Positions 15,558-18,732 of a DNA stretch of 64,000 nucleotides are shown here, one piece after another (the stretch's first letter is position 1; the number at the start of each line of letters is the position of its first letter). This stretch comes from a bacterium (lineage in GTDB: Bacteria; AUK180). Where the stretch lies: assembly GCA_023144005.1 (NCBI GenBank), contig JAGLGN010000001.1, positions 62,001 through 126,000 on the forward strand. Direction: 5' to 3'. The notes beneath the pieces were generated by a model. It was not told the DNA's origin, did no database searches, and saw only the letters and a program-made list of their open reading frames with translations. A program made the translations under genes and the position numbers.

Positions 15558-16295
15558 ATGAAGAAGTTCACAATAATTTTTGTTGCTATCATTATTCTGC
15601 TGTTCGCGGCGTGCGCCAAGGAAGATACTTCACAGCCGGTAGAGCGCAAGTTCGACTCTACTTCTGTCGATGCGGACGATATGAAAGATGTTGTCTTTGA
15701 TCAATCGCTTGGAGAAGATGAGGATGAGTATCTTCAGGAAAAAGAGCAAGAAGCAAAAAAAGAAGCTGAAGAGGTCAAAAAGGAAGTTGTCAAAGAAGCG
15801 GTAAAGAAAGATTTTACTTCAAAGATAACAGCTTTCGCAAAGACAGACGACGGGAAATACAGTATCACTATCAATGAGAAGATCAAGATATCGGGAATTA
15901 CCATTACAAATGGAAAGGCTATAATGCCTTATAATGAGTGGAATGGGAAGAAATACTACTTCGTATGGGCAAATGACCCTGGCTTCCTGGCAATGGTGGC
16001 CGATGCCATAATCAATAAAAGCATAGCCAGCGCGTCGAAGACCGAGATCACGAAGGCCGATGTGAGGGCCAAAGACAGTGGAACACTGAAAGGCTACGGT
16101 GAAATAGAGATCAATGGTGAATTTCTGATCAAGTCGATTCCCGTTTTTATCGGTGGGAGATACGGTGATGGCATCGGTGACCCCGCTATAAAAGTAGATG
16201 GAGAATGGGCACCGATGGTAAAGTTCCTCGATAAAGGGTTCAAAAATACTGTGAAGGAGATCATATTAAAAAAGTATTACTCCCTCTCCTCATAA
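15558..16295 (+). CDS. Lipoprotein with charged coiled region
   Basis: A 245-residue protein with a lipobox (FAAC, Cys at about 20). Residues about 52-92 are a highly charged Glu/Lys coiled stretch, followed by a compact domain of about 150 residues that ends near the C-terminus. It is separated from pilB by 2 bp. The final codons TTA AAA AAG form a heptamer A AAA AAG (16268-16274) with AAGGAG 8 nt upstream, the same layout as the dnaX -1 frameshift site of E. coli; see the next gene. No family recognised. Confidence 0.6.
   Translation: MKKFTIIFVAIIILLFAACAKEDTSQPVERKFDSTSVDADDMKDVVFDQSLGEDEDEYLQEKEQEAKKEAEEVKKEVVKEAVKKDFTSKITAFAKTDDGKYSITINEKIKISGITITNGKAIMPYNEWNGKKYYFVWANDPGFLAMVADAIINKSIASASKTEITKADVRAKDSGTLKGYGEIEINGEFLIKSIPVFIGGRYGDGIGDPAIKVDGEWAPMVKFLDKGFKNTVKEIILKKYYSLSS
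16254..16274 (+). promoter_or_regulatory. Shine-Dalgarno site plus A-AAA-AAG heptamer deciding the start of the next gene
   Basis: AAGGAG at 16254-16259 is followed 5 nt later by ATT (16265) in the frame of the next gene, and 8 nt later by A AAA AAG, which is in the right phase in the upstream frame for a -1 shift into the next gene. The element can therefore be read as a ribosome binding site for an ATT start or as a stimulator of frameshifting. The sequence alone does not decide. Confidence 0.45.
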
Positions 16296-16717
16296 CGCTA
16301 TTCACTTTTCTTTCCTTTTCTTTTCCCTGCGGAGAAAGTGCTGCGCCCCCATGGGTTAGAGGAGGGCAATCCCTTCTGATGCCGGGCTTGGGACAGGGTT
16401 TTAATGGGAAGATCATTAAGGCGGTTCTATTCTTCTCTTTAGCGGGGGCCGGAACATATTACAGTTTTAACGGATACGAGGGCGTTCAGAGCGCCTATGA
16501 TCAATATCTGACGGCATTTGAAACTGCCCCGGGAGATGTTGAAGCCCTTTATGATAAGTATGAGGAGATGTATTATCTGAATCAATATTTGATAACCGCT
16601 CTCGTAGTATTTTGGGTCTACAATACGCTTGATGCCTTTTTTGACGCGCATTTTCTCAATCTCGACATGGATCTGAAACAGAAACGCTTTGATATTTTTC
16701 TGGAGACAAGGTTCTGA
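16265..16717 (+). CDS. DUF5683-like membrane protein, probable ATT start or frameshift-expressed
   Basis: From 16265 the frame encodes a good signal peptide (IKKVLLPLLITLFTFLSFSFP) and then RGGQSLLMPGLGQGFNGK, a second membrane helix, a loop of about 50 residues and the ending FWVYNTLDAFFDAHF. The PGLGQ motif and the xxNTLDAxFDAHF ending fit DUF5683-type proteins. The first ATG in frame (16379) would cut away the signal peptide, so the start is likely ATT 16265 behind AAGGAG; a -1 frameshift from the lipoprotein frame is the other option. The stop TGA overlaps the next ATG. Role unknown. Confidence 0.6.
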   Translation: MKKVLLPLLITLFTFLSFSFPCGESAAPPWVRGGQSLLMPGLGQGFNGKIIKAVLFFSLAGAGTYYSFNGYEGVQSAYDQYLTAFETAPGDVEALYDKYEEMYYLNQYLITALVVFWVYNTLDAFFDAHFLNLDMDLKQKRFDIFLETRF

Positions 16718-18732
16718 TGAGATTCATTCACTTCAGTGACACCCATCTTGGCGACCACTTTCCTGCCTCAAAAGGACAGGATCCCGAGATATTCAGAGGA
16801 AAGGACTTTTTCAAGAATTATTTTCTGATCACCGATTATATTCTGAAGCACGCCAAAGGCATCGACTTTATCCTGCATACAGGAGACCTTTTCGACAGAG
16901 AACCCTCACATTATATTCAGGAGCTGACAATAAAGCCCCTGCTGGAGATCGACAATTTGGGAATCCCGATATTCCTTATCAAGGGAAATCACGAAAAAAC
17001 CTGCTTTCCCGACTCCTTTACTTCAAGATTTAAGAATCTTCACGTTTTCTGCCAGCCGGGAGCGCGAATACACCGGTTGGGAAAAAAGAAGGTGATGATC
17101 TGCGGCATCCCTTATATGAAAGATGGTAAGACGAGGGTGAATAAATTATTTGCGCAGGCGATGGAGCAGACGAATTGGAGCAAAAAACGGGCTGATTTCA
17201 AGATACTCTTGCTGCATCAATTGCTGCATGGAGCAAAAGTTGGCCCTATCGGCTACAGATTCGGAAGATTCCCTGAAGTGCTTTCAAAGGACATTATCCC
17301 GAAAGAATTCGATTATGTCGGGATCGGCCACATCCACCGCAAACAGATCATTCGTCATCCAAAGACAAAGAAGCAGAATATATTTTTTCCGGGAGCTCAG
17401 GAGAGGATCACCTTTTCAGAGATACATGAAAAAAAAGGATTCTATGATATCACCGTTGATGATAACACAAGTATCGAGTCAACCTTCATTAATTTGAGAT
17501 GCCGGCATATGTTCGAATACAAGCTGAAATTAGACGGGAAGAGCGAGGAAAAAATCAAAGAGGATGCATATAAACTTCTTAAGCGTATTCCCCGAAACGG
17601 CTATGGCAAGATCCGTTTTGAGGGCAAGGTCGAAAGGTCGCTTTTTGATTCACTTCCTTTGCATCAGTTCAGAAGGAAGAGCTTCAAATGTCACTTCAAT
17701 TTTAAGCAATTGCGGATATATAAGGGACATACATCAATGTTTGTTATCAAAGATACTGATATAAATGGAGATATCGGCATTGTCCTTGATACTCAATTAT
17801 CCCTCTCCAAGATCAAATCTCTCCCAAAGGTTCCGGGATTATATATTTTCAGAGATTCAAAAAGAAGGGTGCTCTATGTTGGGAAGGGCATGAGCATACA
17901 ATCCGCAGTAAGGGCACAGATCAAGCGTGTGCCGGAGAATAAGCATCGAAAGGAACTATTGGAAAGTACTAAATATATTGACTGCATAGAAGAAAAGAAT
18001 ATCCTTTCGATGATATTTGAAGAGCGGAAGTTCCTGAGACGATTTAGGCCTCCCTTCAATAGAAAGGTCTCCTCCCCACAAGGCTATTCTTATATCGTGA
18101 CCGACCCGAGCCAAGATATTCTCTTCTTAACTATTTCAGATACACCGCCGGCAAAAGGGGCGTTCTTTCTTGGACCTCTCAAGAAGGAATATAATCTTGA
18201 TAGAGTTCTTCTGACCTTGGAAAATCTGATGGACTTGCCAACCTGTAAAGGGTATTTCTATGAAGCTCCGACATTATGTATCAAATTCCTTACCCGCATG
18301 TGCATCGCACCGTGTAAATCCAAGGACCGTAGGAAAAAGTATATGAAGAAATTGAATGACTTCTTCATTAATCCTTCGAAGGTACTTAAAAAACTAATGA
18401 AAGAGACTCAGAAGAACGAAGGAGACCTCAGGTATAAGTATCTAAATACTTTGGATGCCATGGTGAGAGAACTTGAATATCTCTATAAATTATCAGGTGT
18501 CTTCAAAGCAAAGAATTTCAATGGCCCGGGATATTATGTTCTGACTATCAAGGATGGATTTATTCTCCGTACAGAAAAAGTAGTCTCGGAAGAAGCATTG
18601 TTGAAGCGCATGGATTTTTTCACCGGGCTTCTGGAAAAGGTTTCGAAGAATCGCGCATTAACTCCCGATGAATATTTAAATGGGAAAATGGTGGCGGAAC
18701 TTCTTGAGAAAAAACTGATCGAGAGAGTATAG
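16717..18732 (+). CDS. SbcD/Mre11-type phosphoesterase fused to a UvrC/Cho-type GIY-YIG nuclease
   Basis: A 671-residue fusion. Residues 1-260 are a calcineurin-like phosphoesterase of the SbcD/Mre11 nuclease type, with the metal ligands SDTHLG (Asp8, His10), GDLFD (Asp57), GNHE (Asn91, His92), His167 and GHIH (205, 207). After a linker domain to about 365 comes a GIY-YIG nuclease: PGLYIF (Tyr376), LYVGKG (Tyr387), Arg399, catalytic-type Glu435/436 and PPFN (Asn448). Cys510, 521, 529 and 533 repeat the spacing of the UvrC Fe-S cysteines. The UvrC C-terminal endonuclease domain is absent, as in Cho. It is the last gene of the operon. A DNA repair nuclease is inferred; no sbcC partner is nearby. 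Confidence 0.82.
   Translation: MRFIHFSDTHLGDHFPASKGQDPEIFRGKDFFKNYFLITDYILKHAKGIDFILHTGDLFDREPSHYIQELTIKPLLEIDNLGIPIFLIKGNHEKTCFPDSFTSRFKNLHVFCQPGARIHRLGKKKVMICGIPYMKDGKTRVNKLFAQAMEQTNWSKKRADFKILLLHQLLHGAKVGPIGYRFGRFPEVLSKDIIPKEFDYVGIGHIHRKQIIRHPKTKKQNIFFPGAQERITFSEIHEKKGFYDITVDDNTSIESTFINLRCRHMFEYKLKLDGKSEEKIKEDAYKLLKRIPRNGYGKIRFEGKVERSLFDSLPLHQFRRKSFKCHFNFKQLRIYKGHTSMFVIKDTDINGDIGIVLDTQLSLSKIKSLPKVPGLYIFRDSKRRVLYVGKGMSIQSAVRAQIKRVPENKHRKELLESTKYIDCIEEKNILSMIFEERKFLRRFRPPFNRKVSSPQGYSYIVTDPSQDILFLTISDTPPAKGAFFLGPLKKEYNLDRVLLTLENLMDLPTCKGYFYEAPTLCIKFLTRMCIAPCKSKDRRKKYMKKLNDFFINPSKVLKKLMKETQKNEGDLRYKYLNTLDAMVRELEYLYKLSGVFKAKNFNGPGYYVLTIKDGFILRTEKVVSEEALLKRMDFFTGLLEKVSKNRALTPDEYLNGKMVAELLEKKLIERV

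Follow-up and report, generated by a model that had tools for sequence, protein, structure and literature searches.

The window analysed here is a 64,000-nucleotide stretch of genome G000 (2.67 Mb, 38 contigs) of an uncultured bacterium, in which a lipoprotein gene is followed by a DUF5683 gene and an Mre11-like gene (Table 1). The DUF5683 frame is open from a TAA at 16232–16234 to a TGA at 16715–16717, as judged from the open reading frames and inspection of the sequence, and its earliest ATG, GTG or TTG is found at 16379. Upstream of this ATG, the near-cognate codons ATT, ATC, ATA and CTG are represented in the frame solely by ATT 16265, ATA 16292 and CTG 16376. Read from the ATT, the translation begins (M)KKVLLPLLITLFTFLSFSFPCGESAAPP... 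and has a signal-peptide-like N-terminus; an in-frame ATT heads the coding region, and the full DUF5683 protein has no canonical start. The ATT lies 5 nt after AAGGAG, a proper Shine-Dalgarno (SD) spacing. Directly behind it is the heptamer A AAA AAG, with AAGGAG 8 nt upstream, in a phase that suits a −1 slip out of the lipoprotein frame (TTA AAA AAG), which itself ends at TAA 16293–16295. All three elements thus fall within the 3′ part of the lipoprotein gene. A preliminary description of this DNA had reported the open frame with its signal peptide and SD-spaced ATT, a first ATG lying beyond the signal peptide, and the heptamer in −1 phase behind AAGGAG, and all of these are confirmed by our check of the reading frames and sequence.

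Table 1. Features at the junction of the lipoprotein and DUF5683 genes, in window positions
Feature	Positions	Strand	Basis
Upstream lipoprotein gene, C-terminal SpoVG-like domain	15558–16295	+	Open reading frame and Pfam SpoVG
GTT where the ancestral ATG start stood	16238–16240	+	ATG in L007, L008 and L009; GTT in the window and L005
Shine-Dalgarno AAGGAG	16254–16259	+	Identical in L005; L007 and L009 have AGGA here
Proposed ATT start codon	16265–16267	+	Sequence, relatives and genome pattern screen
A AAA AAG heptamer, −1 phase	16268–16274	+	Kept in L005; absent from L007, L008 and L009
Proposed DUF5683 gene (150 codons and a stop), N-terminal signal peptide	16265–16717	+	Pfam; orthologs in 5 of 7 class genomes
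First canonical ATG	16379–16381	+	Aligns with internal I/V/L of orthologs; AGGAGG at 16360–16365, 13 nt upstream

The protein read from the ATT matches Pfam DUF5683 (PF18935) at 34 bits against a curated cut-off of 26.7, which the other four orthologs also pass, and the match starts at residue 36, ahead of Met39, the residue encoded by ATG 16379. A literature search on DUF5683, judged by title, found nothing relevant. The lipoprotein scores 25.2 bits against SpoVG, below the Pfam cut-off of 29.6, and three of its orthologs score above it (35.8–37.6 bits); a SpoVG domain on an exported protein looks unusual. Downstream, the gene at 16717–18732 combines an Mre11/SbcD-like phosphoesterase (residues 1–306) with a UvrC/GIY-YIG-like part (residues 360–630). 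Its protein matches NCBIfam Mre11 (1e-17) and UvrC (6e-22), all below the cut-offs, and its orthologs in L008 and L009, which likewise adjoin DUF5683, match Pfam GIY-YIG. In TGATG at 16715–16719, the DUF5683 stop and the ATG of the next gene share one base, and the run of genes that opens with the lipoprotein and closes with the Mre11-like protein is thus tightly packed and probably coupled.

The start region in related genomes

A search of 98 genomes identified DUF5683 orthologs in five, G000 included, and the same five come from the seven genomes of the class. Scanning genome contigs added one locus, L005, from a sister species, which was counted as one genome with locus L006 of G001. The sister species is the one other species of the genus among these genomes, and its DUF5683 protein is 93% identical. 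Its AAGGAG, ATT and run of A are unchanged, and it also has no canonical start. Because a second species carries the same sequence, a sequencing error is unlikely, and we rejected it as an explanation.

The gene order lipoprotein, DUF5683, Mre11-like is common to three other genera (L007, L008 and L009). Each of them starts DUF5683 at an in-frame ATG that lies 27 nt ahead of the position of the ATT, within the lipoprotein gene near its 3′ terminus. This ATG is written A-TGG and overlaps a conserved tryptophan codon of the lipoprotein. In the window's genus, the lipoprotein tryptophan has been replaced by phenylalanine (TTC), and the codon in the DUF5683 frame is GTT. From ATG in three genera and GTT here, it follows that the start codon was lost, and the sequence comparison shows a loss fixed in the genus rather than an error of one assembly. 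It had been proposed earlier that an ordinary ATG at this place in relatives would betray a mutation or error, and the outcome of this check is mixed. Other genera do have an ordinary ATG, but upstream, where this genus has GTT, and the sister species keeps both the ATT and the heptamer. An upstream in-frame ATG in three genera of shared gene order means that the N-terminal region was ancestrally coding.

At the ATT position itself, L007 and L009 have an in-frame ATT (isoleucine) and L008 has TTT. In L007 and L009, an AGGA read by eye lies 6 nt before this position, and therefore both the ATT site and a proto-SD existed outside the window's genus too, the SD of the genus being the longer one. 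Conservation of the ATT and SD within the genus involves one sister species only and is in part a consequence of the overlap with the lipoprotein.

How often an SD precedes an ATT in these genomes

The background was assessed in 344 called genes on 464 kb (the window and 20 further stretches, 79% coding), a sample that probably misses some of the genes in the region. An internal ATT behind a 6-nt SD at 4–9 nt was found in about 0.5% of cases (16/2814, 7/2926 and 21/3232 for the three frames). Whole-genome counts of the pattern GGAG-N4-9-ATT-AAR-AAR are 11 in G000 and 8 in G001, those of the reversed pattern 9 and 10, and those of the ATG version 103 and 133. Because the ATT pattern is not more frequent than its reversal, an SD and ATT by themselves prove nothing. 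Among the 19 ATT matches, only the DUF5683 locus, once per genome, heads an open reading frame of at least 100 codons without an upstream canonical start, and no canonical start follows there for 38 codons after the ATT.

Codon screens and pattern counts gave no sign genome-wide of ATT as a common start in G000 and G001, and the case therefore rests on the DUF5683 locus. Eleven of the 344 genes have at least 12 coding-like codons before their first canonical start, none with ATT, ATC, ATA or CTG behind a 5-nt SD; this screen is insensitive, as it placed the DUF5683 coding start at 16373 and would miss this gene. An earlier codon screen of 273 genes, now superseded by that of 344, had listed three ATT codons behind a 6-nt SD, which by the maximum printed lie one codon ahead of a canonical start.

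Initiation at the ATT, at other codons or by frameshifting

A central question is whether the stretch ahead of ATG 16379 is translated. In the alignment, all five orthologs have a hydrophobic, signal-peptide-like N-terminus, PWVRGGQSLL lines up with the beginning of the conserved domain, and Met39 stands opposite internal residues of the three other genera, with homology among orthologs beginning upstream of ATG 16379. The conserved stretch before Met39 includes P39 and S46 (alignment numbering), which are invariant in all five. Between the two species, positions 16298–16378 carry 4 synonymous and 3 nonsynonymous differences (pS 0.19, pN 0.05), with no stop or indel, seven changes in all giving the selection test little power; the corresponding figures for 16379–16714 are 9.5 and 6.5 (pS 0.14, pN 0.02). 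Judged by codon usage in the DUF5683 frame, 16298–16378 (score −4.05) ranks lower than every one of the 44 signal-like N-termini sampled. We also compared the signal peptide with that of paralog L003. At register 0 it beats shuffles over residues 4–22 (97 of 20,000 reach the score), and over residues 4–16 the score is reached by 1,340 of 20,000. Specific homology to this paralog was rejected, since 3 of 24 unrelated signal peptides score equally, which points to an ordinary signal-peptide layout rather than descent.

These observations bear on the possibility of a start shifted to ATG 16379, with the signal peptide lost in the window's genus, which we regard as unlikely. It is the first canonical start, codon usage just before it is poor, and AGGAGG lies upstream of it. 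However, the distance from this SD to the ATG is more than ideal, a protein starting there would be cut into its conserved domain and lose the invariant P39 and S46, and the upstream stretch has stayed free of stops and indels with pS well above pN. The pairing of AAGGAG with ATT would, moreover, be a coincidence. Least probable of all is some other non-canonical codon, either GTT 16238, ATA 16292 or CTG 16376. The GTT occupies exactly the place of the ancestral ATG, and GTC is described as a working start of Streptomyces sigR (PMC5472188), but here AAAGG is directly adjacent to the GTT and no spaced SD precedes it. As for the other two, both are in the DUF5683 frame, but a start at ATA would leave out the lysines together with the beginning of the hydrophobic segment, and one at CTG would truncate the protein in the same way as ATG 16379.

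The preliminary description had left the choice between an ATT start and a −1 frameshift at A AAA AAG like that of E. coli dnaX, which would yield a fusion of the lipoprotein and DUF5683. As in dnaX, the heptamer is in phase and has an SD-like element upstream, and the sister species keeps both. According to a review (PMC5009743), the slipperiness of E. coli dnaX is due to a single tRNA-Lys that holds AAG weakly, and one of the two lysine tRNAs of Thermus is expected to hold AAG tightly. In contrast to E. coli, G000 carries tRNA-Lys(CTT) as well as tRNA-Lys(TTT). Nor is the in-phase heptamer avoided, with 65 occurrences in 60 of the 344 genes against 37 expected; an SD-like element stands within 16 nt of five of the 65. 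Folding of the downstream sequence gave nothing better than its shuffles (z of −0.99, −0.96 and 0.27, and 0.84 in the sister species), unlike dnaX with its stem-loop, and a stem predicted between 16284–16291 and 16359–16366 was rejected on the same grounds. The heptamer is present in two of five orthologs, both in the window's genus, with L007 and L009 lacking it and L008 having A AAA AAA in phase. Each of these three has a separate ATG for DUF5683. A frameshift, as opposed to that within dnaX, would join two separately started genes and set a signal peptide behind an exported lipoprotein. We therefore consider frameshifting very unlikely, and the heptamer is most likely just the first lysine codons past the start. 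Of the two options first proposed, the ATT has gained from its conservation in the sister species, the loss of the ancestral ATG and the longer SD; the slip has lost ground with two lysine tRNAs, a common heptamer, no significant structure and the absence of the heptamer from three genera.

A candidate ATT start and its possible origin

We consider it likely, from the sequence comparisons above, that the DUF5683 gene initiates at the non-canonical ATT 16265. The ancestral start would have been an ATG 27 nt before the ATT, nested in the lipoprotein tryptophan codon as (A)TGG, and the change of this codon to TTC in the genus would have destroyed it, leaving GTT. Initiation may then have passed to the pre-existing isoleucine ATT behind a weak AGGA, which became AAGGAG. 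Under this scheme, the 30S subunit would bind AAGGAG inside the coding end of the lipoprotein and accept fMet-tRNA at AUU with low efficiency, the initiator tRNA presumably inserting fMet. The predicted product, MKKVLLPLLITLF..., would carry an export or membrane signal and be exported or inserted by means of its signal peptide. Help may also come from ribosomes translating the lipoprotein, which would keep the region open; the first base of the lipoprotein stop codon lies 28 nt past the A of the ATT. The longer SD is presumably compensatory, and output would be reduced and perhaps coupled to translation of the lipoprotein. More tentatively, the locus may represent a traceable relocation, in which an ATG trapped in an overlap was lost by an amino-acid change in the neighbour and an internal AUU with a proto-SD took over. 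This membrane-protein gene would then be permanently weakly initiated and possibly sensitive to IF3 and coupled to the lipoprotein, in a lineage whose infC apparently does not start with AUU.

Parts of this scheme can be compared with other systems. In Staphylococcus aureus, non-canonical starts with extended SDs are described as reaching ~10% of AUG activity, in poor medium (PMC13009471). A survey indicates that a switch to a suboptimal start tends to be offset by a stronger SD (PMC5622118), and a longer SD after the start-codon change at our locus agrees with this trend. The same survey reports that AUU replaced an ancestral AUG in place in just 1 of 61,358 cases (PMC5622118); the DUF5683 start, in contrast, would have moved to an AUU that already existed. 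AUU starts with strong SDs are already known (PMC13009471, PMC9410913), and the one proposed for DUF5683 is probably of this known sort, as in infC, pcnB and cvfC1. In E. coli, pcnB is a chromosomal gene other than infC that is limited by its AUU start (Binns and Masters 2002, as cited), and the citing passages do not trace its origin to an ATG lost further upstream in an overlapping neighbour. In Staphylococcus, cvfC1 has an AUU with a strong SD that is conserved in related species, and, according to PMC13009471, it is first in its operon with a start mapped by ribosome profiling, whereas DUF5683 is internal, overlaps its neighbour and has a putative start deduced from sequence. AUU starts outside infC are rarely documented, and the ancestral and derived states seen in related genomes indicate a way for non-canonical starts to evolve, through relocation within a gene overlap. 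For annotation, restricting starts to canonical codons would strip the DUF5683 protein of its signal peptide.

The gene for IF3, infC, has an AUU start behind an SD in E. coli and others, as proposed here for DUF5683, which is a different gene and for which IF3 feedback is not implied. Searching seven genomes for infC, we did not find it in G006. In the window's family, infC read by eye apparently starts with TTG behind an SD in four of five genomes, the fifth being ambiguous. In the class relative G005 (L010, 1501–1707), an in-frame ATT preceded by an SD lies near the infC N-terminus, also read by eye, and it is possible that the infC start codon has changed within the class.
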